Shown: piece after piece, positions 43,743-62,003 of the stretch | How the letters are laid out: each line of letters begins with the position of its first letter | Numbering within the stretch: the first letter of the stretch is position 1 | NCBI RefSeq assembly: GCF_000411295.1 | Contig: NZ_KE150421.1 | Span: 683,324 to 747,323, forward strand | Direction of reading: 5' to 3' | DNA length: 64,000 nt | Origin: Paenisporosarcina sp. HGH0030 | Lineage (GTDB): Bacteria; Bacillota; Bacilli; Bacillales_A; Planococcaceae | The notes under the pieces: generated by a model | What the model was told of the DNA's origin: nothing | Database searches by the model: none | The model's input: the letters and a program-made list of their open reading frames with translations, nothing else | Translations under genes and position numbers: made by a program

Positions 43743-44726
43743 TCAAGCCATAATTTCTGGTTTTCTTTGTTCTAAAACCGGTTCTTTGTAAGAGATTTCC
43801 TCACCAGTTTCAATATCAATAAACGAACTCGTTTCATTGAACCAGCGGTCTGGTGCTTCGTGTCCCCAGAATGTCTGACGAAGTGGATCATTCAAATCCC
43901 AGCGTTTCGGTTTCAAGTCTGGGTCGGTAGTTAAGTAATCACCGGTGTAGAGTTCAATACGATGGCCATCCGGATCTCTCAAGTATAGGAAGAAGGCATT
44001 TGATAAGCCATGACGTCCTGGACCTCGTTCAATGGATTGTGCATAGCCCATACTGGCAAGAACGTCACAACAATCAAGAATGCTGATTCGGTCTGTCAGA
44101 GAGTATGCAAAATGATGAAGTTTTGGTCCTGGACCACTCATGAATGCATGGTCATGAACGGTTGGCTTGCGGTAAAGCCACGCAGCCCACAAGTCGCCAT
44201 TTTCAGTTTCCGTATATTCTGAACAGGAGAAGCCTAAGTGGTCAACGTAGAAATCATAAGCTCTTTGAACGTCAGGCACTGCGCAATTAACGTGGTCAAT
44301 CCGCTGAATTTTCGCTCCGCGGTATAAGTCATAGCGTTGGAGCATGCGATCGGTTGTCTTCATTTCCGCAAAAAACTCCAATGGAATTCCAGAGTTATCA
44401 TGCACACGAAGTGTTCTTCCAATCGCATGCTGCGTTCCGGAAGGTAGCCATTTTGTTTTCAATCCTTTGGATTTAAAGAGCTTTTCGATTTCGTCAAGAT
44501 CCTGTTCTTTCGCCACCTTGTAACTGAGTACTTCCACCATTGCTTTTTCTGCTTGTTTTAATAAAAGACTATGATGAGCATGTTCTTCGAGACCTCTTAA
44601 GTAAATATGCTGGTCATCACTTTCTGTTTCAATCATGCCTAAACCATTGACGTAAAACTCACGGGAAGCCTGTAAATTGGTTACATGAAGAACTGTCCTC
44701 GCGATTCGAATGATAGAAAAATCCAT
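43743..44726 (-). CDS. hpaD: 3,4-dihydroxyphenylacetate 2,3-dioxygenase (HpaD)
   Basis: A 327-residue extradiol ring-cleavage dioxygenase of the type I (VOC-fold) class. It opens homoprotocatechuate to 5-carboxymethyl-2-hydroxymuconate semialdehyde. Iron ligands are readable: His in RIDHVNCAV, His in KLHHFAYS and Glu in GHRIELYTGDY, with the conserved acid-base Tyr adjacent. The C-terminal TTDPDLKPKRWDLNDPLRQTF lid resembles homoprotocatechuate 2,3-dioxygenases of Brevibacterium and Bacillus. ATG 44726 is 8 nt from AGGGGG, preferred over GTG 44735. Last gene of the operon. Confidence 0.93.
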   Translation of the reverse strand: MDFSIIRIARTVLHVTNLQASREFYVNGLGMIETESDDQHIYLRGLEEHAHHSLLLKQAEKAMVEVLSYKVAKEQDLDEIEKLFKSKGLKTKWLPSGTQHAIGRTLRVHDNSGIPLEFFAEMKTTDRMLQRYDLYRGAKIQRIDHVNCAVPDVQRAYDFYVDHLGFSCSEYTETENGDLWAAWLYRKPTVHDHAFMSGPGPKLHHFAYSLTDRISILDCCDVLASMGYAQSIERGPGRHGLSNAFFLYLRDPDGHRIELYTGDYLTTDPDLKPKRWDLNDPLRQTFWGHEAPDRWFNETSSFIDIETGEEISYKEPVLEQRKPEIMA

Positions 44727-44746
44727 TGTGGTCACCCCCTCTGTGG

Positions 44747-46255
44747 TTATTTTCCGAATTGTTGAATATGATGATCGGTTATGGAAACATGAATAATTTT
44801 CTGCTCGGTATAAAATTCGAAACCGTAATGTCCGCCTTCACGGCCGATTCCCGAATATTTCGAGCCTCCAAATGGAGTTCTTAAATCACGCACATTTTGA
44901 GCGTTCACCCATAACATACCAGCTTCCACTTTATGCGCTACACGGTGACCACGCTTGATGTCATTTGTCCATACATATCCTGCAAGCCCGTAATTGATAT
45001 CGTTAGCCAGTTTAATAGCTTCTTCTTCATCCTTAAATGTCATGACCGTCAGTACCGGTCCGAAAATTTCTTCCTGGGCGATGCGCATATGATTCTCTGC
45101 ATTTAACAGTAGAGTCGGTGCAACAAAATTCCCTTTCGCCATTTCTTCAGGGATATCTGCCGTAATGACTTCCGCGCCTTCTTCTTTGGCAATATCCAAG
45201 TAGCTTTTCACTTTTTGATAATGACCTTTATCGATTAAGGGCCCCACTTCTGTGTCGGCTTCTAGTGGATCACCCATCTTGATTTTTGCTACACGTTTTT
45301 TCAGTGCTTCAATAAATTCATCTTTTATGGATTCCTGCACAAACAAGCGGGAGTTCGCGGTACATCTTTCCCCGTTAAAGGAATAAATTCCCCAGACGCA
45401 TGCATCCATTGCCCGCTCAAAGTCAGCGTCGTCAAAGACGATAATCGGTGACTTCCCACCTAGTTCCATCGAACAGCTTTTCAAAGTATCAGCACTATTT
45501 TTAATAATAGTCGAGCCGGTTTTTGTCTCCCCTGTAAATGAAATCAGTTGAACTTCGGGATGCTTAACGAGCGCATCCCCAGCTGTCTCTCCATAGCCAT
45601 GAACCACGTTGAAGACACCTTTTGGCAGGTCTGCTTTATGAATGATTTCAGCTAACAAGTTCGCCGACAGTGGCGACAGTTCTGCTGGCTTCAAAACAAC
45701 CGTGTTGCCGGTTGCCAGTGCAGGAGCAACTTTCCATGTTTCCAGCATAAATGGTGCATTCCACGGAGTGATTAACCCTGCTACACCAACTGGCGTATTG
45801 ATTGTATAATTGATAAATTCGTCGTCCACTTGATAGGCATCGCCGACGAGGCGGCTTTCCACCATGCGTGCATAAAACCTGAAGTTTTCCGAAGCACGGC
45901 CAACCATTTTTTTGGTCTGGCTGATTGGAAGTCCCGTATCGAGCGCTTCCAAGTAAGCAATTCTCTCTACTTCTTCATCAATTAAGTCCGCTATCCGATA
46001 AATGTATTCCATTCTTTTTGTAAGTTTCATCGTCTTCCAAGGACCATGGTCAAAGGCATCACGTGCAGCAGCTACTGCTTTATAAATGTCTTCTGCTTGT
46101 CCTTCAGCAACTTCGTTGATTTGTTCATTTGTAAACGGATTCATATTGATTATCGTATTGCCACTAGTAGCAGAAGTGAATTCCCCATTGATATAGAGTA
46201 GGATATTGTCTTGCGTTTCATGTTTAAACGCCACTTTTTCTCGTGAAGATACCAT
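44747..46255 (-). CDS. hpaE: 5-carboxymethyl-2-hydroxymuconate semialdehyde dehydrogenase (HpaE)
   Basis: A 502-residue NAD-dependent aldehyde dehydrogenase oxidising the ring-cleavage aldehyde to the dicarboxylate. The general-base Glu is in MELGGKSPIIVF and the catalytic Cys in FNGERCTANSR. The early TPWNAPFMLETWKVAPALA and the C-terminal TPFGGSKYSGIGREGG are HpaE-like. ATG 46255 is spaced 5 nt from AGGTGA. It lies between hpaD and the DapA-like aldolase, matching its pathway step. Confidence 0.92.
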   Translation of the reverse strand: MVSSREKVAFKHETQDNILLYINGEFTSATSGNTIINMNPFTNEQINEVAEGQAEDIYKAVAAARDAFDHGPWKTMKLTKRMEYIYRIADLIDEEVERIAYLEALDTGLPISQTKKMVGRASENFRFYARMVESRLVGDAYQVDDEFINYTINTPVGVAGLITPWNAPFMLETWKVAPALATGNTVVLKPAELSPLSANLLAEIIHKADLPKGVFNVVHGYGETAGDALVKHPEVQLISFTGETKTGSTIIKNSADTLKSCSMELGGKSPIIVFDDADFERAMDACVWGIYSFNGERCTANSRLFVQESIKDEFIEALKKRVAKIKMGDPLEADTEVGPLIDKGHYQKVKSYLDIAKEEGAEVITADIPEEMAKGNFVAPTLLLNAENHMRIAQEEIFGPVLTVMTFKDEEEAIKLANDINYGLAGYVWTNDIKRGHRVAHKVEAGMLWVNAQNVRDLRTPFGGSKYSGIGREGGHYGFEFYTEQKIIHVSITDHHIQQFGK

Positions 46256-46302
46256 ACTTATCACCTATATTCTTAAGTTTGTAGTGATCATCAACTAAGT
46301 TA

Positions 46303-47232
46303 TTAGTTTACAGCCGCTTCCTTTGGAAGTTTTCCAAGGTCGACGAGTGTTTCGCGAACTTCTCTTTTCAGAGCCTCTGAAGGGAATCCTAAAGGCAGAC
46401 GAAGTTTCGGATTGATTTTCCCCATCATGCCAAGCGCTACTTTTGCAGGTCCAGGGTTTGTATCTTTAAACAACACATCGTTTAATGGCATTAATTCGAA
46501 GTGCAAATCCTGACATCTTGCTACGTCGCCCGCTTCCCATGCATTGTATAATTCGGCCACTTTGACTGGTTCAACGTTCGCTGTTGCGCTGATGAATCCG
46601 GCCCCACCAATCGCAAGCATCGGATAGCACAGCAGTTCGATTCCTGAATACAAAAGGAAGTCTCTGCCGCAGTTCAGCAATACACGATTGACATGCTCGA
46701 AGTCTTTGTTCGCTTCTTTTACACCGACGATATTCGGGCAATCTTCCACTAAACGTTTCATCGTGCTTACTTCCATATTGACTGCAGAACGACCCGGGAT
46801 ATTGTAAATGATAATCGGTGTTGTCACTGAATCAGCGACTGTTTTAAAATGCTGGTAAAGGGCTTCCTGATTTGGCCTGTTGTAATAAGGCACAATTACC
46901 ATCGCAGCATCAGCACCGATTTCTTCAGCGTACTTTGTCAATTCTATTGTTTCGTCATGGTTTGTCGACCCAGTTCCAGGCGCGAAAAAGACACGGCCGT
47001 CTATAGTTTCTTTTGCAAGGGCCATCACTCTTTTTCGTTCAGCCATTGTCAATGAGCTCGGTTCCCCGCTTGTTCCCGTAACGGAAATCCCATGACTGCC
47101 ACTTTCAATTTGCCAGTTAATTAACTCAATAAATGCTTTTTCATCAATTGCGCCGTCTTCTGTAAACGGGGTAACGACAGGACAAATGGACCCTCTTAAT
47201 TTTCTTTTCGCTTCTGTGTATGCCAAATTCAT
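46303..47232 (-). CDS. DapA-family class I aldolase in the hpa operon
   Basis: A 309-residue (beta-alpha)8 lyase of the dihydrodipicolinate synthase family. The Schiff-base lysine is in NIVGVKEANKD, the proton-relay Tyr in IIIYNIPGRSA, and the substrate-binding motif in VTGTSGEPSSLT. It occupies the place where hpaI (a class II aldolase) is expected, so it probably cleaves the seven-carbon hydroxy-oxo-diacid to pyruvate and succinate semialdehyde rather than making lysine precursors. AAGGAG lies close to ATG 47232. The function is inferred from context. Confidence 0.85.
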   Translation of the reverse strand: MNLAYTEAKRKLRGSICPVVTPFTEDGAIDEKAFIELINWQIESGSHGISVTGTSGEPSSLTMAERKRVMALAKETIDGRVFFAPGTGSTNHDETIELTKYAEEIGADAAMVIVPYYNRPNQEALYQHFKTVADSVTTPIIIYNIPGRSAVNMEVSTMKRLVEDCPNIVGVKEANKDFEHVNRVLLNCGRDFLLYSGIELLCYPMLAIGGAGFISATANVEPVKVAELYNAWEAGDVARCQDLHFELMPLNDVLFKDTNPGPAKVALGMMGKINPKLRLPLGFPSEALKREVRETLVDLGKLPKEAAVN

Positions 47233-47264
47233 CTACTCCTTTAAGGAATTAATGTACGTCAAGG

Positions 47265-47756
47265 TTATTCCTGAAGTTCTTTCAGTTCACGATATTTTCC
47301 CTGGCTGTAGAGCAACGGGTCATGTTGTTCCAGTTTGACGCCCGTTACTTGCCCGATAAAAATGGTATGATCGCCAGCTACATATTCGCTATGCAGTTTA
47401 CACGTCACAACTGCCAGTGAATCCGGAAGAACAGGAAGTCCTTTATATGAAGAGAACGTTATTTCATCCTCTAAATTTAACTGACCGGAGAATTGCTTGG
47501 ACTCATTTACTTGTTTGGACGTCAGGATATTGACAGCAAATTGTTTTGCTTCTTTGATATGTTGCAGCATTCTAGCTCTTTCACCAATGCTGACGGCGAT
47601 AAGTTTCGGGTTTAATGAAATCGACATGAACGCATTTGCGGTCATGCCATGTACCTCACCAGCGACTTCGGTCGTTATGACTGTGACACCGGTTGCGAAA
47701 CTTCCCATTGCATTGCGAAACAATCGATCATCCATTTCATGTTCATCGTTGTGCAT
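47265..47756 (-). CDS. hpaC: 4-hydroxyphenylacetate 3-monooxygenase reductase (HpaC)
   Basis: A 163-residue flavin reductase of the HpaC-like family that supplies reduced FAD to HpaB using NADH. Typical motifs: FATGVTVITTEV, GMTANAFMSISLNPKLIAVSI and GDHTIFIGQVTGV. The length fits the family (about 150-170). It lies 43 nt downstream of hpaB, with GAAGGGAG before ATG 47756. Confidence 0.92.
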   Translation of the reverse strand: MHNDEHEMDDRLFRNAMGSFATGVTVITTEVAGEVHGMTANAFMSISLNPKLIAVSIGERARMLQHIKEAKQFAVNILTSKQVNESKQFSGQLNLEDEITFSSYKGLPVLPDSLAVVTCKLHSEYVAGDHTIFIGQVTGVKLEQHDPLLYSQGKYRELKELQE

Positions 47757-47799
47757 ATTCTAATCTCCCTTCCACTAACTTAACGAGTCTATTATTTGA

Positions 47800-49284
47800 C
47801 TAAGATAAAATACCCGCTTCTTTTTTCGCTCTGTTCAGGAAGTCGTTCACCATGTTTTTATATGGTTGCTTGTCGAATTGATCGTAATAAGCATTAGACA
47901 TCCGCACTGGATCTCCGAAGAAATAGTACTCATACAGTGCTTGGCGGTTACCGAAGGCACTGATTGAAATATCCCATGCTAAGCGGAATAATTGAACTTT
48001 TTCCTCACCATTGATGTTGGCACCTTGCGTGTAACGATGAACTAATGTTCCGACATCCGTACTACTGAAGTCTGCTTCTGTTGGCAATGCCATCAAGCCG
48101 GATGCGCCAAGAATTTTAATGATTTCATTCATCCGTTGGTACATTTTCGGGTACCAGTTACGGGCTGCGTTCAACGGTTCAAAGTCAGGTGTCATATTGC
48201 CATATTGATCGATTTTGGCGTTGTGTTCAGCGCGGAATAGGTGAGAACGCATCACTTCCAAAATGACCATGATTTCGCTCGCTTTTTCTTTTACATGCAT
48301 GAACTGATCAATTCCGATTGCTTCCATCATGTTGACGACCACACCGAGAATGAACTCTGTTTTCACCGTGTTTTTGGCGATGACTTGATGCGTCATATGT
48401 ATGACCGCATTCGTTTCCGTATACGTGCGATTACAGATGTTTGTACTTTCGCTTACAAATACTCTTTCCCATGGAACAAACACGTCTTCAAACGAGATAA
48501 TCGCATCACTTTCGTCAAAACGGGCACCGAGCGGATGATCCCATTTGCTCTTCCCATAGTCGAATGATTCACGAGACAGGAATTTCAGCCCTGCCGTATT
48601 ATTTGGAATAGCGAATGCGAAAGCATACGGATCGTCCGTCGTTCCTGGAGTCCGATTGATAGTGGAAGGGAAAACGACCAGTTCGTCAGTGATACCACCT
48701 AAAGTGGCCAACAGGCGGCAACCGTTTACGATAATTCCGTCTGGTGTCTTTTTGGTTATACGTGCGGAAAGTGTAGGATCTTTTTGATCCGATTGAGTCA
48801 ATGTCGATCGGTTCACTTGTGGGTGGATTAATGTATGAGTTAAGCTGATGTCATTTTCACGTGCATATTCATAATAGTCTCTGGCATTTTTGGCAAATTG
48901 CTTACTGCCGCCACCTTCTTGTGCGAAGAATTCACTGGCAGTACCAAAAGCCATAATGCTTGTATTTAAATAGTCTGGAGAACGTCCCATCATGCCGCCG
49001 GAAAAACCAGCCCATTCGGAATGCATTTCACGTCTTCTAAATAAATCTTCTTTGGTTTTCGGTGCAATAAAGGAAAGCCCAACTTTTTTGCCTGAAGTCG
49101 GTGAAGTATAAAGCATCTTCTCTGGCTTCTCATGTTGCAGATCATATAGTCCAGCTACACTTTCCACGACGTTTTTAAAGGCAGGGTGTGTCGTGACGTC
49201 TTCCACTTTCTCCCCGTGAATCCACACTTCAGTGTTCCGTTTTTTTATGCCTTCGATATATTCTTTTCCTGTACGAGCGCCCAT
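47800..49284 (-). CDS. hpaB: 4-hydroxyphenylacetate 3-monooxygenase oxygenase (HpaB)
   Basis: A 494-residue FADH2-dependent oxygenase of the acyl-CoA-dehydrogenase fold that hydroxylates 4-hydroxyphenylacetate to homoprotocatechuate with HpaC. Family motifs: RTGKEYIEGI at the N terminus, GFSGGMMGRSPDYLN, ISLTHTLIHPQVNRS, FEDVFVPWERVFV, and ANINGEEKVQLFRLAWDI. Strong GGAGG ribosome binding site. It is the committed step joining the upstream amino-acid arm to ring cleavage. Confidence 0.95.
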   Translation of the reverse strand: MGARTGKEYIEGIKKRNTEVWIHGEKVEDVTTHPAFKNVVESVAGLYDLQHEKPEKMLYTSPTSGKKVGLSFIAPKTKEDLFRRREMHSEWAGFSGGMMGRSPDYLNTSIMAFGTASEFFAQEGGGSKQFAKNARDYYEYARENDISLTHTLIHPQVNRSTLTQSDQKDPTLSARITKKTPDGIIVNGCRLLATLGGITDELVVFPSTINRTPGTTDDPYAFAFAIPNNTAGLKFLSRESFDYGKSKWDHPLGARFDESDAIISFEDVFVPWERVFVSESTNICNRTYTETNAVIHMTHQVIAKNTVKTEFILGVVVNMMEAIGIDQFMHVKEKASEIMVILEVMRSHLFRAEHNAKIDQYGNMTPDFEPLNAARNWYPKMYQRMNEIIKILGASGLMALPTEADFSSTDVGTLVHRYTQGANINGEEKVQLFRLAWDISISAFGNRQALYEYYFFGDPVRMSNAYYDQFDKQPYKNMVNDFLNRAKKEAGILS

Positions 49285-49386: not shown

Positions 49387-49770
49387 CTATTTAAATCGTG
49401 CATGGATATTATTTTGCTTATATGTGCCGGCCTCACTGAATTCGATCAGTTCCATCGACAATGCCAAGTAACGTTTGGACATGAGTTCCGAAAAATGATT
49501 TTTCAATACGGCAAATAATGCAACGCAAGCTTCTTTTTTAACTTCTACCGAACGTCCTGCTCCTATTTTCAACACGGCATGGACAAAAGCATCGTCTTCA
49601 GACCCGTCAGCAACCCGGTAATCTTTTAATTCAATTGCCCTTGAACGGATGCCCCCTATAGGGAAAACGGAGTCCCGTGAAATGAGGACCTTATGAACTT
49701 CTTCAAATAGCAGCGCGATATTCGCCTCATTTTTGATATTATCCGTATATTCCACTGTAAAATGCGGCAT
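49387..49770 (-). CDS. hpaF: 5-carboxymethyl-2-hydroxymuconate isomerase (HpaF)
   Basis: A 127-residue member of the tautomerase superfamily. The catalytic N-terminal proline follows the initiator Met (MPHFTVEYTDN), and the mid-chain Arg residues (PIGGIRSRAIELKDY, GAGRSVEVK) match HpaF. It converts the 2-hydroxymuconate to its oxo isomer. AGGAGG precedes ATG 49770. It sits 102 nt ahead of hpaB. Confidence 0.93.
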   Translation of the reverse strand: MPHFTVEYTDNIKNEANIALLFEEVHKVLISRDSVFPIGGIRSRAIELKDYRVADGSEDDAFVHAVLKIGAGRSVEVKKEACVALFAVLKNHFSELMSKRYLALSMELIEFSEAGTYKQNNIHARFK

Positions 49771-49790
49771 GCGGTTTCCTCCTGTTCACG

Positions 49791-50549
49791 TTACCGGTTC
49801 GAGAACGCTTCATCCCCGATAATGGTATTGACCAATCGTCCGATTCCTTCAATTTCTGTCACGACTTCATCACCGACAGCAGTATCGACGGACCCTTTAG
49901 GAGTGCCTGTAAGAATGACATCATTCTCACTCAATGTCATGAAGCTGCTTAAATATTCTATGAGCGTCGGAATATCAAAAATCATATCCGCTGTCGTTCC
50001 TTCTTGAACAAGCTTGTTATTGACATGGGTAGTCAACTTCAATTCCATCGGATTGGCCACATCATTCGCATCGATGAGCCAAGGACCAAATGGTGTACAC
50101 GTATCGCGGTTTTTGACACGCAAATTCGGACGGTAATAGTTTTCAAGATAATCTCGAATCGCGTAATCATTTGCTACACTGTAACCTTTGACATACTGAT
50201 AAGCCTCTTCTTTTTTTACATTGCGAGCAGTCTTTCCGATAATGACGGCCAATTCGCATTCATAATGCATGTACGTGACGTCAGAAGGGCGACGGGTATA
50301 TGCATTATGGCCGATAAACGTATTCGGTCCCTTCAGAAAAACCAATGGTTCTGATGGTGCATCAAATGCCAGTTCGGCTGCGTGATCCGCGTAGTTAAGC
50401 CCTAAAGCAAATACGGTACGCGGGACGATTGGCGTCAACCATACAACATCACGTTCTTCTACAATCCGTCCGTCATCAAGCTTCAGGCGGCCTTCCCATT
50501 CAATCGCTTTGTGGATTGCGCCTTCACAGGATATCCGTGCTGTTCTCAT
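49791..50549 (-). CDS. hpaG: Fumarylacetoacetase-fold isomerase, C-terminal HpaG half
   Basis: A 252-residue FAH-superfamily enzyme with the metal-binding signature YADHAAEL, YECELAVIIGKTA, PFGPWLIDAND and ILTGTPKGSV. It corresponds to the second half of E. coli HpaG (2-hydroxyhepta-2,4-diene-1,7-dioate isomerase/5-carboxymethyl-2-oxo-hex-3-ene-1,7-dioate decarboxylase), here encoded separately. ATG 50549 (8 nt from GGAGG) overlaps the preceding gene by 4 nt (ATGA), so the halves are coupled. Confidence 0.9.
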   Translation of the reverse strand: MRTARISCEGAIHKAIEWEGRLKLDDGRIVEERDVVWLTPIVPRTVFALGLNYADHAAELAFDAPSEPLVFLKGPNTFIGHNAYTRRPSDVTYMHYECELAVIIGKTARNVKKEEAYQYVKGYSVANDYAIRDYLENYYRPNLRVKNRDTCTPFGPWLIDANDVANPMELKLTTHVNNKLVQEGTTADMIFDIPTLIEYLSSFMTLSENDVILTGTPKGSVDTAVGDEVVTEIEGIGRLVNTIIGDEAFSNR

Positions 50550-51337
50550 TGCGGCCACCTCCGGTTGAAAGATTCTTCGTCAACCAGTTCATTTTCTAGT
50601 TTGCCGACACCCTCTATCTCAATCCGGACTTTATCTCCGACTATTGCAAGTGGCGCATCTTCTGGTACCCCTACGAGCAATACGTCTCCTGGACTCAATG
50701 TCATAAATTCAGTCACGTCAGCAAGTAAACGGGCAACGGGGCGAATTAAATTCTTTGTTGAATTTTCCTGTCGCAGTTCATTGTTGATGAACACACGGAT
50801 GGTTACATCATCCGGATTTTTCATTTCGTCCCTATCAATAACCCATGGTCCGATTGGACAAAATCCATCGCGGCATTTTTGTTGTACAGCTGGACGGAAT
50901 AGGCTTGTATGCGGAACGCTCACGTCGTTAACGATCGTATAGCCTGCCACATAATCCATTGCTGTTTCTTCCGTTACCGCAACTGCTGTTTTGCCGATGA
51001 CAATTCCAAGTGAAGCACCCATTTCAAGTTTCGATTCGCTTTTAGGAACTGGTATGCCTGCTCCATATCGATTCAATGTATTTTCAGGTTTAATGTATAA
51101 AACAGGAGCAACTGGAGGCGAAAGGTATGGTTTATCATTGACCTTATCACCAAGTCTTTCAAGGCCACCATGAAAGTTCAATAATGTACCATAAACCGTT
51201 CCAGTAACGGGGTTGTCCAAGGGTATATCGTTTATACCAAACTCATTACCTTCAAATTCGATTGAATTTGTTTCTGTATTCACAGATACGGAAGATAATT
51301 CTCTTGAATCAGTTCTTTTGATCTTTGCATTAAGCAT
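50546..51337 (-). CDS. hpaG: Fumarylacetoacetase-fold decarboxylase, N-terminal HpaG half
   Basis: A 263-residue FAH-superfamily protein: GTLLNFHGGLERLGDKV, SKLEMGASLGIVIGKTAVAV, GFCPIGPWVIDRDEM and VLLVGVPEDAPLA. It matches the first half of enterobacterial HpaG, with a non-canonical metal region (DE-E replaced). First gene of the hpa operon. ATG 51337 is 8 nt from AAGGAG, preferred over GTG 51346. Which half carries which activity is not provable from sequence. Confidence 0.88.
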   Translation of the reverse strand: MLNAKIKRTDSRELSSVSVNTETNSIEFEGNEFGINDIPLDNPVTGTVYGTLLNFHGGLERLGDKVNDKPYLSPPVAPVLYIKPENTLNRYGAGIPVPKSESKLEMGASLGIVIGKTAVAVTEETAMDYVAGYTIVNDVSVPHTSLFRPAVQQKCRDGFCPIGPWVIDRDEMKNPDDVTIRVFINNELRQENSTKNLIRPVARLLADVTEFMTLSPGDVLLVGVPEDAPLAIVGDKVRIEIEGVGKLENELVDEESFNRRWPQ

Positions 51338-51376
51338 TCGAATCACTCCTTAAGTTATTAAACTAGTTGTTTATCG

Positions 51377-51458: not shown

Positions 51459-52256
51459 TCAAACAGACAATAAGGCTTTATCACTGGTAAGTTTTTCGCC
51501 ACGTATACGTTGGAATTCATCCATTAGTTTAGGAATGGTCAAATTCTTCTTCTCTTGTGCGTCAAATTCCAAAATAATTTGTCCTTTGTCCATCATGATT
51601 AATCTATTTCCTAAGTCCAAAGCTTGTTGCATATTATGCGTGATCATCAGCGTGGTTAGTTGATCCTTTTCAACCAGTTGTTTTGTTAAATTGGTAATCA
51701 GTTCCGCACGGGAAGGATCCAGTGCCGCTGTATGTTCATCCAATAGTAAAATCGACGGTTGTGTAAAGGTTGCCATTAATAGAGAAAGAGCTTGTCTTTC
51801 ACCACCTGAAAGCAAACCCACTTTCGCATTCAAGCGGTTTTCAAGATTTAAATGAAGTGTTTCAAGAGATGTACGAAATAATTCCCGTCGTTTCCTGTCA
51901 ACACCGATTCTTAATAAACGTTTCTTATTGCGTGAATAGGCCATTGCTAGATTTTCTTCGATTGTCATCGAAGGTGCTGTACCAGCCATCGGGTCTTGAA
52001 ATACACGTCCAATCATCTGCGAACGCTTATACTCCGGCATTCTTGTAACATTTTTATTGGAGATTTCTATTTCACCAAAATCAGGAGACAAAGCGCCGGA
52101 AATCATATTCAACATAGTGGATTTCCCTGCGCCATTGCTTCCGATAACCGTCATGAAATCACCTGGATTTAAATGGAGATTAATCTGGTCCAAAGCGATT
52201 TTTTCATCTGGTGTGGCTTCATTGAATAATTTGTTAATCTGGACGAGTTTCAGCAA
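51459..52256 (-). CDS. ABC transporter ATP-binding protein (TrpZ/LivG-like)
   Basis: A 265-residue ATPase: Walker A IGSNGAGKST (about 38-47), signature LLSGGERQALSLL, Walker B SILLLDEHTAALD (with His in place of the usual Pro) and MITHNMQQA. It energises the permease encoded upstream, whose gene overlaps by 23 nt. TTG 52256 with GGGGGAG 6 nt away is the start. Part of an importer between the 2-oxoacid dehydrogenase and hpa genes, probably for an aromatic compound. Confidence 0.88.
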   Translation of the reverse strand: MLKLVQINKLFNEATPDEKIALDQINLHLNPGDFMTVIGSNGAGKSTMLNMISGALSPDFGEIEISNKNVTRMPEYKRSQMIGRVFQDPMAGTAPSMTIEENLAMAYSRNKKRLLRIGVDRKRRELFRTSLETLHLNLENRLNAKVGLLSGGERQALSLLMATFTQPSILLLDEHTAALDPSRAELITNLTKQLVEKDQLTTLMITHNMQQALDLGNRLIMMDKGQIILEFDAQEKKNLTIPKLMDEFQRIRGEKLTSDKALLSV

Positions 52257-54362: not shown

Positions 54363-55802
54363 TCAAATGATTAATAAATCTTTCTTCTTAGCAGGTGCGG
54401 CATGGATGGCTTGTCCGATTAATCCTTCCACCGCTTCAAGCATGCCCTCACCCATTCCCGGATGAGCATAATGAGGGAATTTGACGTCTTCTTCTTTTGC
54501 GGCCATTTCTAGTAACTGCACAAAGGAACTGGACATTTCGATAGCCCCTTCTCCGATCATATGAATCCCGCTAATAATTTCTGTTGCGGGATCGGAAATC
54601 ACTTTGATGAAACCATCCTTTTTTCCAGTTATGGCTGCGTAGCCGTTGCCGCCAAGAGGGTATTGACTGACCCGAACATCGAACCCAAAGTTGCGGGCGT
54701 TCACTTCAGTAAGACCAACCGAAACAATCGGTGGAATGGTATGTGCCACAATAGGCATGAAAGTCATGTCGACTTCAGGTTTATGTCCGACAATCGCTTC
54801 AACCGCAGCTTTTCCTTGTTTAATTGCTTTAATTGCCATCAAAGGACCTTCGGTTACATCTCCTATTGCGTAAATGGATGGAATCGATGAACGCATAGAT
54901 GCGTCGACGTGAATGTAGCCTTCCTCCGTTTGTGCAACACCGATGCGGCCTATGCCAAGTGGTTTAATATTTGGTTTTCGGTATCCCGTTACAAAAAGAT
55001 GAGAGCCGTGAATCGTTTCTTCGACGTTTTTGTCATTTTTGAACGTAACAGCAATTTCATGATCATGATCTTCAGTAGAGAGCAATTGAGCATCTTTATA
55101 GATATTTATTTTTCTACGTTTAAATAAACGTAGCAATTCTTTATGGATGGATTCATCAAAAGCAAAATTTGCTTTGTCCTCAAATAGAATGCTCACTTTT
55201 GCACCCAGTGCCGCAAAACTAGAAGCCACTTCAAGGGCAATATAATCCTGTCCTGAAACGACCAAGTGCTCTGGCATTTCATTGAGTTCAAATATTTCGT
55301 GTGATAACAGTATTCGTTTACTTTTTACTTTGATGGAGTCCGGCAGAATTGGAGAACTCCCGGTTGCAATGATCGCCTGCTCGAATTCAAAAATATCGAA
55401 CTGATGACCATTTTCTACACCGATTTTGTCTGCTCCGAGAAAAGTAGCTTTGCCTTGAATCACTTCAATTTTATTGTTTTTACAGAGACTTTCGACGCCT
55501 GTTCTAAGACCATTAATTGCTTTGTCTTTATAACTCAGCAGCTTAGTCAAATTGAAAGTATCATCACCTTCACCAATCCCAAGTTCGTGTAAATGGTCCG
55601 TTTCTTCCCGTTTCTTTGCCGCGTGGGTAAAGATTTTTGAAGGGATACAGCCTTTGTTCAGACAAACCCCGCCCATGTAGGACTGTTCAATCAAAGTAAC
55701 CGACAACCCAAGCTGCGCACCTCGTATCGCTGCAGAATATCCACCCGGTCCCCCGCCGATGATGATGAGATTTCGTTGTTGACTGATTTCACCGACAACC
55801 AT
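54363..55802 (-). CDS. Dihydrolipoamide dehydrogenase (E3)
   Basis: A 479-residue FAD/NAD flavoprotein that reoxidises the lipoyl group of E2. FAD-binding GGGPGGYSAA, redox-active disulfide GGVCLNKGCIPSK, second FAD motif IYAIGDVTEGP and the C-terminal catalytic HAHPGMGEG (His-Glu pair, reading YAHPGMGEGML) are visible. It is the last gene of the complex, 2 nt after E2. A dedicated E3 is usual for branched-chain or substrate-specific 2-oxoacid dehydrogenases. Confidence 0.93.
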   Translation of the reverse strand: MVVGEISQQRNLIIIGGGPGGYSAAIRGAQLGLSVTLIEQSYMGGVCLNKGCIPSKIFTHAAKKREETDHLHELGIGEGDDTFNLTKLLSYKDKAINGLRTGVESLCKNNKIEVIQGKATFLGADKIGVENGHQFDIFEFEQAIIATGSSPILPDSIKVKSKRILLSHEIFELNEMPEHLVVSGQDYIALEVASSFAALGAKVSILFEDKANFAFDESIHKELLRLFKRRKINIYKDAQLLSTEDHDHEIAVTFKNDKNVEETIHGSHLFVTGYRKPNIKPLGIGRIGVAQTEEGYIHVDASMRSSIPSIYAIGDVTEGPLMAIKAIKQGKAAVEAIVGHKPEVDMTFMPIVAHTIPPIVSVGLTEVNARNFGFDVRVSQYPLGGNGYAAITGKKDGFIKVISDPATEIISGIHMIGEGAIEMSSSFVQLLEMAAKEEDVKFPHYAHPGMGEGMLEAVEGLIGQAIHAAPAKKKDLLII

Positions 55803-55803
55803 A

Positions 55804-57030
55804 TTAAATCATCTCCATCATCAGTTTATGTGGGTGTTCAATAAGGCTCGCAAAGCGGTTTGTAAATGCTACAGCGGTTGCACCATCTGCGACTCTGTGG
55901 TCAAAAGCCATGGAAAGTGTCATGATATGACCAATGACAATTTCATCCAGCTCATTGACGATCGGCTGTTTTTTAGTTTTATGGAAAGCAATCAATGCCG
56001 TTTCCGGATAGTTGATAATAGGTGTAGCCCCTGTACTACCCAGCGGACCGACATTACTTACAGTAAATGTGCTGTTCTGCATTTCAAACGGCTGCAGTTT
56101 CCCGGAAACCGCTCTTTCTGTCAAATCTTTTACATCTGCATGAATCGTTTTAATCGATTTCTTATCCGCATCGTGAACGACAGGAACAATCAAGCCGCTA
56201 TCTGTGTTTGTGGCGATCCCGATATGATAATTTTTCTTAAGAAGAATCCGACTGTTCTCTTCATCAAGTTCAGCATTGAAAATTGGGAAGTCTTTTAATG
56301 AAATTACTAGAGCTTTAATGAGGAAAGCAGAGACGCTGACCGATTCACCGGACGCTTTCAATTCTTCTCTCATTTTAAATAAGTTCGTCATGTTCACTTC
56401 ATCAAAATGGGTAACATGCGGAATTGTGAATAATGATTTCGTCATCTTTTCCGCAATTTTTTTGCGTATGCCTTTAAACGGAATTTCATCAGGTGTTTCC
56501 TGACGAACTGCTGACTGAGGGACCGCCATAACTGATTCTTGATAAGTTTCAGTTTGATGACCTTTCAGGAATCGATAAACATCTTCCTCCGTCACTCTTC
56601 CAGATGGATCAGATGCTTGGACATCTTCTATATTAATGTTATGTTCACGCGCAATTTTACGAGTGTATGGCGCTGCCAAGACACGGGTGAAAGTCGTCTG
56701 AATATTCTTCTCTTTAAAGACAGTTGGAGTAATCATTTCGTTTTTTACTTCCTGTTTCATTTCAGGGGATGTTTTTTGTACTGTTTTTACTGATTCATCC
56801 GCTTCGATATAAATCAGGCTAGTTCCGACTCTAACCGTTTCGCCGGCATCGATAATGATTTTTTTTACGATACCTGAGCAGGGAGAAGTAAGTTCTGCAA
56901 CCATTTTATCGGTCTGTACTTCAACAAGTGGTTGATCCGTACGTACGGAGTCCCCAACTTTAACCAAGTAATGGACAATCTCTCCTTCGGTCATCCCTTC
57001 TCCAATGTCATGTAGTTTTACTTCGAGCAT
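55804..57030 (-). CDS. Dihydrolipoamide acyltransferase (E2) of a 2-oxoacid dehydrogenase complex
   Basis: A 408-residue E2. The N-terminal lipoyl domain has the modifiable Lys42 in EVQTDKMVAEL. The peripheral-subunit binding domain lies around 117-155 (AAPYTRKIAREHNI, then DPSGRVTEEDVYRF). The catalytic core ends with AFDHRVADGATAVAF (His-Asp active site). It transfers the acyl group to CoA. A single lipoyl domain is typical of the BkdB type. Acyl specificity is inferred as arylacetyl from the genomic context. Confidence 0.93.
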   Translation of the reverse strand: MLEVKLHDIGEGMTEGEIVHYLVKVGDSVRTDQPLVEVQTDKMVAELTSPCSGIVKKIIIDAGETVRVGTSLIYIEADESVKTVQKTSPEMKQEVKNEMITPTVFKEKNIQTTFTRVLAAPYTRKIAREHNINIEDVQASDPSGRVTEEDVYRFLKGHQTETYQESVMAVPQSAVRQETPDEIPFKGIRKKIAEKMTKSLFTIPHVTHFDEVNMTNLFKMREELKASGESVSVSAFLIKALVISLKDFPIFNAELDEENSRILLKKNYHIGIATNTDSGLIVPVVHDADKKSIKTIHADVKDLTERAVSGKLQPFEMQNSTFTVSNVGPLGSTGATPIINYPETALIAFHKTKKQPIVNELDEIVIGHIMTLSMAFDHRVADGATAVAFTNRFASLIEHPHKLMMEMI

Positions 57031-57042
57031 GGCATTTCCCCC

Positions 57043-58059
57043 TTAAAAATGAACCACTTTTTCAATCCCTTCAACAATACGGGCAGGTGTAGGAAGGTAA
57101 TGTTCTTCCAAAGTGAAGAAAGGAACAGGAACATCAAAGCCCGTAACTCTTTCGATTGGAGCACGTAAATATAGGAACGACGTGTCATTGATTATGGACA
57201 CAATATCATTACCGAGCCCTCCGGTATGATGCGCTTCATGAATAATAACCGCTCTTGTCGTCTTTTGGACGGACTGTGCAATAATGTCCCGATCAATCGG
57301 ATAGAGTGTACGAAGATCGATAATTTCACAACTGATGCCTTTTTTCTCTGCCTGTACGGCCGCTTTTTCAGCGATTGCAACCATGGCACCCCATGCAATC
57401 AAAGTGACATCCGTACCTTCACGGACGACTTTTCCTTTGCCAATTTCCACAGTATATTTTCCAACAGGTACTTCTTCTCTTTGCGAACGATAGTTTTTCA
57501 TCGTTTCCAGGACCAGTACCGGGTCTGGATCTTCCATAGCTGCAATCAGTAACCCTTTTGCATCATACGGATTTGAAGGGCAGACAACTTTTATTCCCGG
57601 CATATGAGTGAACAAAGTTTCTGTACTATCGGAATGGATTTCAGGTGCACGAATTCCCGCTCCGTATGGGGCCCTGATGACCATAGGTACCGTAAAATGT
57701 GACATTGAACGCATACGGATACGGGAAACATGGGTCATGATTTGTTCGTATGCGGGATAGATAAAACCAAGGAACTGTATTTCCGCAATCGGTTTGAATC
57801 CGTTAACAGCAAGACCAATGGACGTTCCAATGATGCCGGATTCAGCTAGTGGGGTATCCACTACACGGTCGGCTCCGAACTTTTCCTGAAGTCCTTCTGT
57901 CGCACGGAACACTCCTCCATTTTTCCCGATGTCTTCACCCAGGATGATGGTACGATCATCCTCTTCAAGCAATAATCGCATGCCATCATTAATTGCCTGG
58001 ATCATCGTCATCTGGGTTGTCTGTGCCTCTTCATGATTTGACTCTTTCATTGTCGTCAT
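57043..58059 (-). CDS. 2-oxoacid dehydrogenase E1 beta subunit
   Basis: A 338-residue E1 beta (transketolase-like): TMIQAINDGMRLLLEEDDRT, ILGEDIGKNGGVFRATEGLQ, the active-site region PIAEIQFLGFIYPAYEQ and the C-terminal EGIEKVV. The frame is open a further 49 codons, but ATG 58059 has GGGGAGG 9 nt upstream and a family-like start. The 4-nt space after the E1 alpha stop indicates coupling. It forms the heterotetrameric E1 that decarboxylates the 2-oxoacid with thiamine diphosphate. Confidence 0.93.
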   Translation of the reverse strand: MTTMKESNHEEAQTTQMTMIQAINDGMRLLLEEDDRTIILGEDIGKNGGVFRATEGLQEKFGADRVVDTPLAESGIIGTSIGLAVNGFKPIAEIQFLGFIYPAYEQIMTHVSRIRMRSMSHFTVPMVIRAPYGAGIRAPEIHSDSTETLFTHMPGIKVVCPSNPYDAKGLLIAAMEDPDPVLVLETMKNYRSQREEVPVGKYTVEIGKGKVVREGTDVTLIAWGAMVAIAEKAAVQAEKKGISCEIIDLRTLYPIDRDIIAQSVQKTTRAVIIHEAHHTGGLGNDIVSIINDTSFLYLRAPIERVTGFDVPVPFFTLEEHYLPTPARIVEGIEKVVHF

Positions 58060-58063
58060 CCTG

Positions 58064-59119
58064 TTACCGCCTCCCCAAATGTGCAAGATATGCTTCTTTC
58101 TGTTCAGCGAGTTGAACGGGCAATACTGCGAATACATGATTGAAAACATCTTCCACGTTTGGCGGTGGGTAGTTTTCCATTTCATCGACAGCCGCTTCGA
58201 CTTCATTCGCTGTTTTTTCTGTCATTTCCTTAATCCACTGTTCATCCCAGTAGCCATAGTTTTTCATGAACAATTCCATACGTTCCATAGGGTCAACAAT
58301 ATGCTGGCCATGTTCCGCAGGGCGATATTTCGATGGATCATCCGCAGTCGTGTGAGCACCTTTTCGCCATGTAACTGCTTCTATTAATGTCGGTCCATCT
58401 CCATTACGTGCACGGTCAAATGCTTTTTTCGTTTCAAAGTAGACCGCCAGACAATCATTTCCGTCAATACGGACACCTGGTATTCCATAAGCAACTGACT
58501 TTTGTGCAATCGTCTTGGAATTCATTTGTTTTTCCATCGGAACTGAAATCGCATAGCCGTTATTTTGATTGAAGAAAACGACTGGAACTTTGAATACGCT
58601 CGCAAAATTCAGTCCTTCATGAAAGTCACCTTCTGAAGTGGCTCCGTCCCCGAAATAAGCAATGGAGGCATTTTTTGTTCCTTTCAGCTTTTCTGCCCAA
58701 GCTGCACCCGCAGCATGAGGCAGTTGAGTAGCAATCGGTACAGCTGGAGGGAAAATATTTCTACCTTCAGGTGGTACACACCCTTCTACTCTTCCATTCC
58801 AATACAAAAATGTTCTAGTCATGCTTTTTCCAAAAGTCAGGGTCGCACCATGGTCACGATAAGTCGGGAAGACCCAGTCATTCTCCTCAAGCGCTAACGC
58901 ACTTCCTACCTGTGCTGCTTCTTGCCCTTCGAAAGGCGCGTATGTACCAAGTCGCCCTTGTCGTTGCAAGTTAATAGATTTTCTGTCATATGTGCGGATA
59001 CGCAGCATGTTGTAATACAATTCTTTTACCAATTTTTCATCAATCGTATTTTTATAACTTTCATCAACGAGAACGCCTTGATCGTCTATTATTCTTTTGA
59101 TCGGATAGTTTTGTTCCAC
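58064..59119 (-). CDS. 2-oxoacid dehydrogenase E1 alpha subunit
   Basis: A 351-residue ThDP-dependent E1 alpha of the PdhA/BkdA group. The cofactor motif runs from GDGATSEGDFHEGLNFA to FFNQNNGYAIS, preceded by FEGQEAAQVG and YRDHGATL, and followed by the phosphorylation-loop-like YRPAEHGQ. GTG 59119 with GGAGG 8 nt upstream. Adjacent amino-acid dehydrogenase genes suggest the substrate is the 2-oxoacid they produce, i.e. phenylpyruvate or 4-hydroxyphenylpyruvate. Annotation as pyruvate dehydrogenase would also fit the sequence alone. Confidence 0.92.
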   Translation of the reverse strand: MEQNYPIKRIIDDQGVLVDESYKNTIDEKLVKELYYNMLRIRTYDRKSINLQRQGRLGTYAPFEGQEAAQVGSALALEENDWVFPTYRDHGATLTFGKSMTRTFLYWNGRVEGCVPPEGRNIFPPAVPIATQLPHAAGAAWAEKLKGTKNASIAYFGDGATSEGDFHEGLNFASVFKVPVVFFNQNNGYAISVPMEKQMNSKTIAQKSVAYGIPGVRIDGNDCLAVYFETKKAFDRARNGDGPTLIEAVTWRKGAHTTADDPSKYRPAEHGQHIVDPMERMELFMKNYGYWDEQWIKEMTEKTANEVEAAVDEMENYPPPNVEDVFNHVFAVLPVQLAEQKEAYLAHLGRR

Positions 59120-59134
59120 TTAACTTGCCTCCAT

Positions 59135-60283
59135 TCAGGATAAGTTGCGTATGGACCACTTTGGTTTAGCTGGTGCTGTGTAGAAGCTATTTCGCTTCGA
59201 TCTTTCCACAATTCGTTTTTCACACATCTCATTTGCGGATTCTTCTGTTGTTTTGCCGCTGCTGCTCGCTTCCTTGAACACTTCCAAAATCGCATCATAA
59301 ATATGTTTTGTTTTGGCAAGTACACGTTCATGATTAATCCCGTACAACTCATCAGCTACTTGAATAAGGCCGCCGGAATTGACGATATAATCAGGAGCGT
59401 ATAAAATTCCTTTTTCGTGTAACATTTTCCCGTGGGTGTCGTTCAGCAATTGATTGTTAGCTGCACCAACGATTGCTTTTACTTTAAACTGAGCGATTGT
59501 ATTGTCATTGATGATTCCTCCAAATGCACAAGGAACGAATATATCTGCCTGCTGTGAATAGATATCTTCTTTTGCTATCACGGTCACTTTGCCGGCAGTT
59601 GTTGCTGCTTTTGCTTTAATGGCATCTATACTATCCTGATGGATATCTGTTACGAAAATTTCAGCACCAGCTTCAAGCAATCCGCATGCAACTTTAAATC
59701 CAACCTTTCCGAGGCCTTGAATGGCGTAGGTGTGTCCGCCCAATTCATCGTTTCCAAAGAGCATATGATTGGTCGCTTTAATGCCGTATAGGACACCTGC
59801 TGCCGTCGGAATAGATGAATCCCCGCCACCACCATATTCAACCGGAAGGCCGTTAATGAAATTGGTTTCTTTTGAAGCGTGTATGAAATCATCCATTGCC
59901 GTACCCATATCTGTTCCTGTATAAAAACGGCCACCTAAAGAATTGACAAATTGACCGAATGCACGGAACAGTTCAGGTGACTTATCTGTTTTCGGATCAC
60001 CGATTATGACTGCTTTTCCGCCTCCAAAATCAACATCTGCGGCAGCGCATTTGTAAGTCATCCCTTTTGACAATCGCAGAACATCTTCCAGTGCCTCGTC
60101 CATACTGTTATAAGGTTGCATACGGCATCCGCCGAGTGCAGGACCGAGTGTTGTATTATGGATTGCAATGATGGCACGCAAACCAGTGGAAGGATCATTA
60201 CAAAAAACCACTTGCTCATGCGCACTCATTTTATCGAAGAGTTCAAATTCTTTAGCCATTGATGTTCTTTCTGCAACTTTCAT
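59135..60283 (-). CDS. Phenylalanine dehydrogenase-like enzyme, copy 1
   Basis: A 382-residue Glu/Leu/Phe/Val dehydrogenase. Catalytic lysines are Lys78 (MTYKCAAA) and Lys90 ([11 protein letters not shown]); the NAD site is [13 protein letters not shown]. The C terminus ([14 protein letters not shown]) and overall sequence follow phenylalanine dehydrogenases of Lysinibacillus and Sporosarcina rather than LeuDH. Asn144 in NFING aligns with Asn145 of the L. sphaericus enzyme, linked to acceptance of aromatic side chains including tyrosine. ATG 60283, 8 nt from AAGGAGG. Directly upstream of E1 alpha. Confidence 0.88.
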
Positions 60284-60325
60284 TCGAAAGGCCTCCTTAA
60301 AATCTATCACTTAAATTTGCTAAAT

Positions 60326-60721
60326 TTAGACTGACGCTTCTTTTAACTTATTAGCTATTGTTTCTTTTGATAGGATGACTTGCATGACTTCACCTTTCCC
60401 AATTACACCTAAATGATTTCGTGCCGTCACTTTTGTCTTAACAAAATTGTCGCGAAGTTCGATCACATTAGCTGTCAAAGACACGACTGAACCAAGAGGG
60501 GATGCAGCAATATGTTTCAGTTGGACTGATGCACCCATTCCCTCTTCATGCTCTTCCAAAAAAGGAAGAATGATTTTTCTTGAAACCCACTCCATATGGT
60601 ATGTCATTGCTACTGTTGAATAGACAGGGTGAACGACTTCACCTTCAAATGCAGCATACATATCCTCTGTCACAATGATTTCAATCGATTCTTCTCTGCC
60701 TAACTCCAGTCCTCGTTTCAT
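60326..60721 (-). CDS. Acyl-CoA thioesterase, FlK-like hotdog fold
   Basis: A 131-residue hotdog thioesterase. Thr36 (YSTVAM), Glu44 (HMEWVS) and His70 (LKHIAASPLG) have exactly the spacing of the Thr42/Glu50/His76 triad of fluoroacetyl-CoA thioesterase FlK. Relatives hydrolyse short or aryl acyl-CoAs. Between the dehydrogenase copies and ahead of the 2-oxoacid dehydrogenase genes, it would release 4-hydroxyphenylacetate (or phenylacetate) from its CoA thioester for HpaBC. The specificity is inferred from context. Confidence 0.82.
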   Translation of the reverse strand: MKRGLELGREESIEIIVTEDMYAAFEGEVVHPVYSTVAMTYHMEWVSRKIILPFLEEHEEGMGASVQLKHIAASPLGSVVSLTANVIELRDNFVKTKVTARNHLGVIGKGEVMQVILSKETIANKLKEASV

Positions 60722-60831
60722 GCTCTATCTCCTACTTACTATTTAGTTTATGTACATGTTATGAACGAAATCGTAGATTAATAGAAAAAAGTTTATATTC
60801 CAGCAAGATTTTCAAATATACAAAACCTAAA

Positions 60832-60845
60832 TGTAAACGCTTACA
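60832..60845. promoter_or_regulatory. CcpA catabolite-responsive element (cre)
   Basis: TGTAAACGCTTACA is a perfect match to the cre consensus TGWAARCGYTWNCA. It lies between the copy 2 dehydrogenase stop and the thioesterase gene, about 110 nt upstream of the thioesterase start. It would repress the downstream catabolic genes in the presence of preferred sugars, either at a local promoter or as a roadblock. Confidence 0.8.
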
Positions 60846-60860
60846 AGGCGATGTTAAAAA

Positions 60861-62003
60861 TCATTTGTGGAAAGCCCACTTTGGTTTCATGGCTGTAGTG
60901 AAAAAGCCATTTCTATTCCTTTTGTTTTCAATTCTCTCGTCACACATCATATTTGCAGCTTCCATCGTCGAAATTCCATTTTTTGTAGCCATCTCGTATA
61001 CTTCTAAAATGGCATCATAGATATGCCTTGTTTTAGCAAGTACTCTTGCATGATTAATGCCATACAATTCATCAGCTACCTGAATCAGTCCGCCTGAATT
61101 GATAATATAATCTGGTGCGTACAGAATGCCCTTTTGCTGAAGTCTTCTGCCATGCGTTTCATTTAGCAATTGATTGTTAGCAGATCCTGCTATTGCTTTC
61201 ACCTGGAACTGTTCAATTGTCTGATCGTTAATGATTCCTCCAAGTGCACAAGGGACAAATACATCCGCTTCCTGTGAATAGATATCTTCACTTCCAACAA
61301 CCTTCACTGTTCCCAATGTAGTTGAGGCTAATTCTTCTATTATTCTCAGACTTTCATGACTGATATCGGTTACATAGAGATGAGCCCCTTCTTCAAGTAA
61401 ACTGATGGCAACTTTTGATCCTACTTTTCCTAAACCTTGAATGGCGTATGTTCTTCCTCCCAAGTCCGGCTTGCCAAAAAGTGATTGATTCGTTGCCTTT
61501 ATGCCATAAAGAACACCCGCTGCCGTAGGAACAGAGGAATCGCCCCCACCTCCATATGCCACTGGTAGACCTACAATGTAATGTGTCTCTTTTGAAGCGT
61601 GTATGAAATCTTCCATGGTCGTACCCATATCCGTCCCAGTATAAAATCTGCCACCTAATGAATTTATAAATTGACCGAATGCCCGAAACAACTCAGGTGA
61701 TTTATCTGATTTCGGATCCCCGATAATAACTGCTTTTCCTCCACCAAAATCCACACCTGCAGCCGCACATTTATAGCTCATTCCTTTGGATAATCTGAGG
61801 GCATCTTCGAGTGCCTCTTCGACGCTTCGATATGGATGCATCCGACATCCCCCTAAAGCGGGTCCTACCGTTGTGTTATGGATGGCAATAATCGCACGGA
61901 GACCGGTTGATGGATCATTACAAAAAACTACTTGTTCATGCTCTGCCATCCTTTCAAAGAGTTCAAATTCGCCAGACAATGGAATGCTTTTAGCAGTTTC
62001 CAT
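60861..62003 (-). CDS. Phenylalanine dehydrogenase-like enzyme, copy 2
   Basis: A 380-residue paralogue of the enzyme at 59135, clearly a duplication. Catalytic Lys78 and Lys90 and the NAD motif [12 protein letters not shown] are kept. The position corresponding to Asn144 of copy 1 is Val144 (HYIVGL), a change that in characterised phenylalanine dehydrogenases alters selectivity between phenylalanine, tyrosine and aliphatic amino acids. GAGGGGGA precedes ATG 62003. Its promoter is at 62138-62166; the cre box follows its stop. Confidence 0.87.

Follow-up and report, generated by a model that had tools for sequence, protein, structure and literature searches.

The subject of this analysis is a 64,000-nucleotide stretch of the genome of Paenisporosarcina sp. 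HGH0030 (contig NZ_KE150421.1, positions 683,324 to 747,323; hereafter the window) and, within it, a run of 18 genes that extends from 62003 to 43743 on the minus strand and joins enzymes predicted to process aromatic amino acids to the homoprotocatechuate (hpa) pathway. All 18 genes are open frames of the claimed families, with adjacent frames spaced by no more than about 140 bases. In order of reading they encode a phenylalanine dehydrogenase (PheDH)-type enzyme, a thioesterase, a second PheDH-type enzyme, the E1-alpha, E1-beta, E2 and E3 components of a 2-oxoacid dehydrogenase complex, the substrate-binding protein, permease and ATPase of an importer, two HpaG subunits, HpaF, HpaB, HpaC, an aldolase, HpaE and HpaD (Table 1). 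A preliminary description of the window, drawn up from the sequence alone, had listed two PheDH-like enzymes, an FlK-like thioesterase, an E1-E2-E3 complex, an ABC importer and an hpa set lying head to tail on one strand, and this list was confirmed by the frames and by profile matches. The E1-beta frame as listed extends to 58206, into E1-alpha; translation probably starts at the ATG at 58059, which is preceded by GGAGGCGG, and for the substrate-binding protein the ATG at 54279, preceded by AGGGGG, is the more likely start. Below, the genes ahead of hpa are referred to as the module, the compared genomes by G numbers (G000 being that of our strain) and loci by L numbers.

Outside the window, on the same strand and approximately 5 to 16 kb upstream of the first PheDH gene (PheDH1), lies a phenylacetate (paa) operon comprising paaX, an enoyl-CoA hydratase gene, paaJ (thiolase), paaH, an aldehyde dehydrogenase gene, paaG, paaF, an EthD-domain gene, paaD, paaC, paaB and paaA, with the PaaA/PaaC-type genes of the genome at G000:C1:758764-760814. 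With paa upstream and hpa downstream, the module therefore sits between a phenylalanine arm and a tyrosine arm. Profile searching of this genome did not find the ligase PaaK, which the canonical paa pathway includes: the best match to TIGR02155 reached 48 bits, as compared with 546-661 bits for most PaaK proteins elsewhere, lower scorers being partial or divergent. Within the genus, PaaK was likewise not found in G003, G005, G006, G007 or the incomplete G002 (a fragment, 81% complete), and was present in G004. A gene for a thioredoxin-reductase-like flavoprotein was also observed just upstream of paaA (L037:16002-17033), with relatives near paaA in G004, G006, G009, G184 and G195; it could act as electron donor instead of PaaE.

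In a class-wide sample of 299 genomes, PaaA/PaaC were detected in 118, PaaK in 105 (at E 1e-60 or better) and HpaD in 40, and 18 of the 118 PaaA-bearing genomes had no PaaK at that threshold. For a closer look, six PaaK-less genomes with weak or odd PaaA or an incomplete genome (G038, G093, G167, G177, G190 and G197) were left out post hoc. Seventeen genomes (12 from the class and five from the genus) then combined a clear paa operon with the lack of PaaK; 15 of them had E1 genes close to the thioesterase or to a paa marker, a count that includes G002 and G007, where the contigs stop before paa.

Table 1 Predicted genes of the 18-gene run and the block upstream of it, in window coordinates
Feature	Position	Strand	Basis
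Promoter-like block upstream of PheDH1	62110..62215 (approximate)	-	near-identical in G000, G005, G003; TTGACT-17-TAATAT at 62166-62138
PheDH-type enzyme 1 (ELFV family)	60861..62003	-	Gly + Leu at two PheDH/LeuDH positions
FlK-like hot-dog thioesterase, predicted aryl-acetyl-CoA thioesterase	60326..60721	-	PF22636 112 bits; best solved relative 2cwz; T36, E44, H70 invariant (12 sequences)
PheDH-type enzyme 2	59135..60310	-	profile match; Gly + Leu at diagnostic positions
E1-alpha of 2-oxoacid dehydrogenase complex	58064..59119	-	PF00676 291 bits; TIGR03181 471 bits, over cut-off
E1-beta	57043..58059 (frame listed to 58206; start inferred)	-	profile match, E1-beta tree
E2 acyltransferase	55804..57030	-	lipoyl, E3-binding and catalytic domains
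E3 dihydrolipoyl dehydrogenase	54363..55802	-	TIGR01350 404 bits, just under cut-off 409
TrpX-like substrate-binding lipoprotein, ABC importer	53299..54279 (frame listed to 54366; start inferred)	-	PF04392 265 bits; NF041285 246 bits, cut-off 390 not reached
ABC importer permease	52234..53280	-	PF02653
ABC importer ATPase	51459..52256	-	profile match
HpaG N-type subunit	50546..51346	-	TIGR02305 268 bits, over cut-off
HpaG C-type subunit	49791..50558	-	TIGR02303 389 bits, over cut-off
HpaF isomerase	49387..49770	-	NF011605 144 bits, cut-off 215 not reached
HpaB-1, 4-hydroxyphenylacetate 3-monooxygenase oxygenase	47800..49284	-	TIGR02309 724 bits, over cut-off
HpaC flavin reductase	47265..47756	-	NF042921 133 bits, cut-off 200 not reached
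DapA-fold 2,4-dihydroxyhept-2-ene-1,7-dioate aldolase	46303..47232	-	TIGR02313 (HpaI-NOT-DapA) 481 bits, over cut-off
HpaE dehydrogenase	44747..46264	-	TIGR02299 778 bits, over cut-off
HpaD homoprotocatechuate 2,3-dioxygenase	43743..44735	-	TIGR02295 427 bits, over cut-off

The three invariant residues of the thioesterase (Table 1) align with those of solved FlK and place it in the FlK family; we take this Thr-Glu-His set to be the FlK catalytic triad, and 2cwz to be Thermus TTHA0967. In the class sample the thioesterase was matched in 91 genomes at E 1e-12 and in 87 at E 1e-38 or better. All 87 genomes with strong matches carried PaaA, as compared with none of the 181 genomes without it (p=2.6e-49; the Fisher tests here and below ignore the kinship of genomes), and the four weak matches (1e-15 to 1e-17; G030, G071, G085 and G259) all fell in PaaA-negative genomes. 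Among the PaaA-bearing genomes it was similarly frequent with HpaD (28/37) and without (59/81; p=0.82). Since strong matches occur only with PaaA and are indifferent to HpaD, the thioesterase is primarily a paa gene, and assignment to hpa was rejected as its main association. Seven of the eight genus genomes have it; in the remaining one PaaA was not matched and HpaD did not exceed the cut-off. Linkage of the thioesterase to paa points to an arylacetyl-CoA as the predicted substrate, in place of the fluoroacetyl-CoA for which FlK proper is specific.

The two E1 subunits, a three-domain E2 and E3 make up a complete 2-oxoacid dehydrogenase set. Four other E1-alpha-type matches were found in the genome, namely a pyruvate dehydrogenase (pdh) locus, a leucine dehydrogenase (LeuDH)-bkd locus and two more distant ones; the full complex of the preliminary description is thus present and distinct from the pdh and LeuDH-bkd loci. 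Linkage of E1-beta to PaaA, PaaK or the thioesterase within 25 kb was counted over 150 listed matches in 77 of 80 genomes. Among the matches listed, the best E1-beta match lay near one of these markers in at least 33 of 77 genomes, and other E1-beta genes did so in at least 1 of 73; with the thioesterase, which belongs to the module, excluded as a marker, at least 31 of 34 linked genomes still had PaaA or PaaK within 25 kb. These numbers are lower bounds, as PaaA positions are lacking for some genomes such as G177, which has a divergent PaaA-like gene inside its PheDH-E1 cluster. This gene (L076:17102-17929; TIGR02156 125 bits, cut-off 280 not reached) and its counterpart in Tumebacillus lacus (L129) share 27-30% identity with own PaaA, and possibly encode a different ring-attacking oxygenase. 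In 12 of the 20 loci examined, E1-alpha, E1-beta and E2 directly follow a PheDH-type gene, with a gap in G177. When the best 80 of 589 loci from a public genome collection were compared, the most similar 29 (L111-L139) comprised 19 with at least one paa-type gene, four with the thioesterase only and six with neither; paa-type genes occurred in 2 of the remaining 51. The genes of paa and of the module were found together in Exiguobacterium indicum, Shouchella shacheensis, Heyndrickxia sporothermodurans and Fictibacillus nanhaiensis.

In an E1-beta tree of 55 rows, built by a quick method and containing a number of long branches (G000 bkd, G095, G235), the window protein fell into a 17-member clade (SH-aLRT 98) apart from the pdh clade. 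Twelve of its members lie within 25 kb of paaA, four are linked to the thioesterase only (G002, G007, G208 and G304) and one adjoins a PheDH gene (G009); a five-member group, all paa-linked, stands next to it (support 92). Eleven sites are fixed in the window group and differ from the PDH clade. Most of them occur in other E1 groups as well and are therefore no proof of specificity for aryl substrates, and the attempt to read this specificity from E1 sequence alone was dropped. From its gene context the complex is predicted to be specific for arylpyruvates. It could instead be a complex of broad specificity, or one for branched-chain 2-oxoacids or pyruvate, located there by accident: TIGR03181 names E1-alpha a pyruvate dehydrogenase, and for either E1 subunit the solved structure that matches best is a pyruvate dehydrogenase E1 chain. 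We consider this improbable in view of the separate pdh and LeuDH-bkd loci, the separate E1-beta clade with its differently fixed sites and the repeated linkage of the complex to PheDH and paa. In G184 and G195, which lack PaaK, a PheDH-type gene lies beside E1-E2 at 19-20 kb from paaA, and the E1-beta sits on a long branch inside the pdh clade; these genes may have been recruited separately. Genes for lipoate-protein ligases were observed beside paaA in G035 (L043:10044-11039) and near the thioesterase in G040 (L029:12410-13495), and perhaps serve a lipoylated complex.

Both window dehydrogenases show the ELFV fold. Gly and Leu were found in 28 of 28 compared dehydrogenases at two positions where the LeuDH of our strain has Ala and Val, and we assume that Gly/Leu in place of LeuDH Ala113/Val291 are determinants of PheDH. 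At a third position, which presumably affects the use of tyrosine, one window paralogue has His and the other Asn. Five solved chains, four of them named leucine dehydrogenase, have Ala/Val at the same two positions, and V291 is described as an active-site position of LeuDH (PMC6033044). The Gly/Leu residues support the earlier assignment of both enzymes as PheDH-type, and deamination of phenylalanine and tyrosine is predicted. Their nearest curated model was the tryptophan dehydrogenase ScyB, matched under its cut-off.

In the hpa arm itself, HpaB, D, E, G and I are over curated cut-offs, as expected of a homoprotocatechuate pathway; HpaC and HpaF fell short of theirs yet matched over nearly the whole profile. 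Elsewhere in the genome, a second HpaB-1 homologue over the cut-off was observed (G000:C1:1022766-1024193), as also in G004, G005 and G006, the copy in G003 being just under it. The paa-module-hpa arrangement is repeated in G003, G005 and G006, and in G266 of a second genus of the family, which has one PheDH and no PaaK. Because the 18-gene order is the same in G003 and G005, and the same but for PheDH1 in G006 and G266, it is not due to chance. In G304, a genome of a different family, hpaF, G, C, E and B lie next to thioesterase-E1-E2, with HpaD just beyond and paaA elsewhere. The contiguity with hpa that had been described thus extends to these genomes; it breaks down in G004, where the module adjoins paa and hpa lies about 2 Mb away, and in G007, where each of the three is on a contig of its own. 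Also in the second genus, G283 and G292 have paa and the module with no HpaD over the cut-off and no PaaK, and G009 has PaaK, no thioesterase match, and PheDH-E1-E2 and paa on different contigs.

The loci in which module and hpa are contiguous (G000, G003, G005, G006 and G266), the arrangement in G304 and the finding of no 4-hydroxyphenylpyruvate dioxygenase (HPPD) over the cut-off in our genome would fit a narrower reading, in which the complex and thioesterase serve mainly to convert tyrosine into 4-hydroxyphenylacetate for hpa and the nearby paa is incidental. We regard this as unlikely: strong thioesterase matches occur only with paa and, among paa genomes, independently of HpaD, the module of G004 stays with paa, and G283 and G292 keep module and paa without HpaD over the cut-off. 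The module is not primarily the front end of hpa that it had first been taken for. The co-occurrence analysis proposed with that description showed the thioesterase tracking paa and not hpa, and linkage of E1 was weakly enriched with HpaD (14/30 vs 10/44, p=0.043); HpaD in turn accompanies PaaA in 37 of 40 HpaD genomes. HPPD was over the cut-off in 6 of 28 genomes tested. Genes for HPPD, an aminotransferase and an FAA-hydrolase come after the module in G270, and in G208 HPPD lies within the module locus. The usual partner of the module is paa, and its tyrosine partner is exchangeable.

We propose, as the probable reading, that the module serves phenylalanine and tyrosine catabolism as a common front end that feeds both paa and hpa through an NAD-linked arylpyruvate dehydrogenase complex. 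The ABC importer would take up the amino acid and the two PheDH-type enzymes would deaminate phenylalanine and tyrosine to the arylpyruvates, which E1-E2-E3, with NAD and CoA, would decarboxylate oxidatively to phenylacetyl-CoA and 4-hydroxyphenylacetyl-CoA. Phenylacetyl-CoA would enter the adjacent paa pathway directly at the epoxidase, bypassing PaaK and its ATP. 4-Hydroxyphenylacetyl-CoA, assumed to be unusable by paa, would be cleaved by the FlK-like thioesterase, giving 4-hydroxyphenylacetate for HpaBC and the hpa pathway; the thioesterase would thus feed hpa in genomes that have it, and in those that do not it would release CoA from a dead-end ester. The substrates, the direction of use and the preference of the thioesterase for the hydroxylated ester are all predictions from sequence and gene context. 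The route from tyrosine through hydroxyphenylpyruvate, the CoA ester and the free acid to hpa, as first outlined, is retained as the predicted tyrosine arm; as a full account it was too narrow, neither the paa operon nor the lack of PaaK being visible from the window. A more specific version, which we put forward tentatively and with more doubt than confidence, holds that in our strain and related bacteria the complex is the sole source of phenylacetyl-CoA, allowing growth on phenylalanine and not on phenylacetate, that the thioesterase sorts carbon by sparing phenylacetyl-CoA and taking 4-hydroxyphenylacetyl-CoA, and that a PDH copy was separately recruited to the same task in another family (G184 and G195).

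Several points weigh against the shared front end. Linkage of E1 was found in 10 of 18 PaaK-less and 20 of 56 PaaK-bearing paa genomes (p=0.17, n=74), and many PaaK-bearing genomes also carry the module. In G035 and G290, both without PaaK, no E1 was found beside paa. Other acyl-CoA synthetases could activate phenylacetate. The references aligned at the diagnostic dehydrogenase positions were the LeuDH of our strain and the five solved chains, none of them a characterised PheDH. No HpaH hydratase match occurs among the 18 cluster genes, a genome-wide search for HpaH not having been made, and the available sequence around paa contained no copy of the promoter-like block of PheDH1. Hydrolysis of phenylacetyl-CoA by the thioesterase would waste it in genomes without PaaK, and G283 and G292 carry the thioesterase although HpaD and HPPD are both short of the cut-off there, so that it must do more than supply hpa. 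Because G000, G283 and G292 keep it without PaaK, where hydrolysis of phenylacetyl-CoA is a loss, we infer a preference for the hydroxylated ester. The thioesterase of G283 and G292 would also suit an overflow module, in which complex and thioesterase make free arylacetates for excretion and paa and hpa serve only external arylacetates. This we hold to be very unlikely, as in G000, which lacks PaaK, phenylacetate once set free would have no way back into paa, and ring-opening operons flank the module on both sides. Overall, the replacement of PaaK by the complex, as predicted here, is supported for our genome, its genus and its family, while the uncurated class-wide test was not significant. 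In G035, PheDH, thioesterase and ABC genes adjoin paa; five neighbouring genes were scanned for a ferredoxin-type arylpyruvate oxidoreductase with no match.

Co-regulation of the gene blocks, which the preliminary description had made a condition, was not demonstrated. A search for a shared operator by 14-base words among nine upstream stretches of our genome (PheDH1, thioesterase, paa, hpa) was set aside after yielding one near match, between PheDH1 and hpaG1. Promoter-like matches in the region were no more than expected by chance (41 vs 44.5 from shuffled sequence; terminators, 19 vs 15.8). Further genes were observed around the module: a nitronate-monooxygenase/FabK-like gene (62421-63593, minus strand) and a hexapeptide-repeat protein gene (63448-63999, plus strand), the latter presumably PaaY-like, are neighbours of paa and the module in many of the loci examined, and a second substrate-binding protein gene adjoins the importer in G004 (L024:13990-14880) and G007 (L028:5607-6611).

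If the proposal is correct, paa has a ligase-free entry in which the energy of oxidative decarboxylation is kept as a thioester, as opposed to the ATP-dependent start described, and genes annotated as pyruvate dehydrogenase or leucine/phenylalanine dehydrogenase would gain an aromatic function. A clear phenotype would be growth on phenylalanine without growth on phenylacetate. Surveys anchored on PaaK would overlook one class of the paa clusters of these bacteria. A paa pathway survey from 2026 examines the neighbourhoods of paaK (PMC13186573) and would therefore be expected to miss PaaK-less clusters.

Our literature search, mainly of open-access text and in part of excerpts, found no proposal of an E1-E2-E3 complex replacing PaaK; direct bypass of PaaK, the pairing of a phenylpyruvate dehydrogenase with a thioesterase, and the location of a pyruvate dehydrogenase next to PheDH are each known. 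The indole oxidoreductase Ior1 is ferredoxin-linked. In Phaeobacter, Ior1 converts phenylpyruvate directly into phenylacetyl-CoA independently of PaaK, and so supplies paa as proposed here, but the ior1-encoded enzyme is not an NAD-linked E1-E2-E3 complex and two PaaK genes are present (PMC5577590). In the 2008 genome paper on Exiguobacterium sibiricum, a pyruvate dehydrogenase adjoining PheDH was proposed to be able to convert phenylpyruvate into phenylacetate; PaaK is present there, and the available part of the paper mentions neither thioesterase, hpa arm nor PaaK replacement (PMC2615787). The phenylpyruvate dehydrogenase PglB/PglC and thioesterase PglD of Streptomyces pristinaespiralis share one operon, as in our module, but make phenylglycine for the antibiotic pristinamycin and are not catabolic, the excerpted text mentioning no paa or hpa partner (PMC10685826). 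Clostridium HpdDEFG-HpdJ-HpdK follows the same oxidative branch from 4-hydroxyphenylpyruvate through 4-hydroxyphenylacetyl-CoA to the free acid; it differs in being anaerobic and ferredoxin-linked, and in removing CoA by a phosphotransferase and a kinase with a gain of ATP in place of a thioesterase (PMC13285125). Lastly, the PaaR regulon of Thermus thermophilus includes the operon TTHA0963-0967, which as listed contains no E1 complex, and TTHA0967 is co-repressed with the phenylacetyl-CoA ligase present there (PMC6651687). If 2cwz is TTHA0967, as assumed above, a relative of the thioesterase is co-regulated with paa in Thermus as well.

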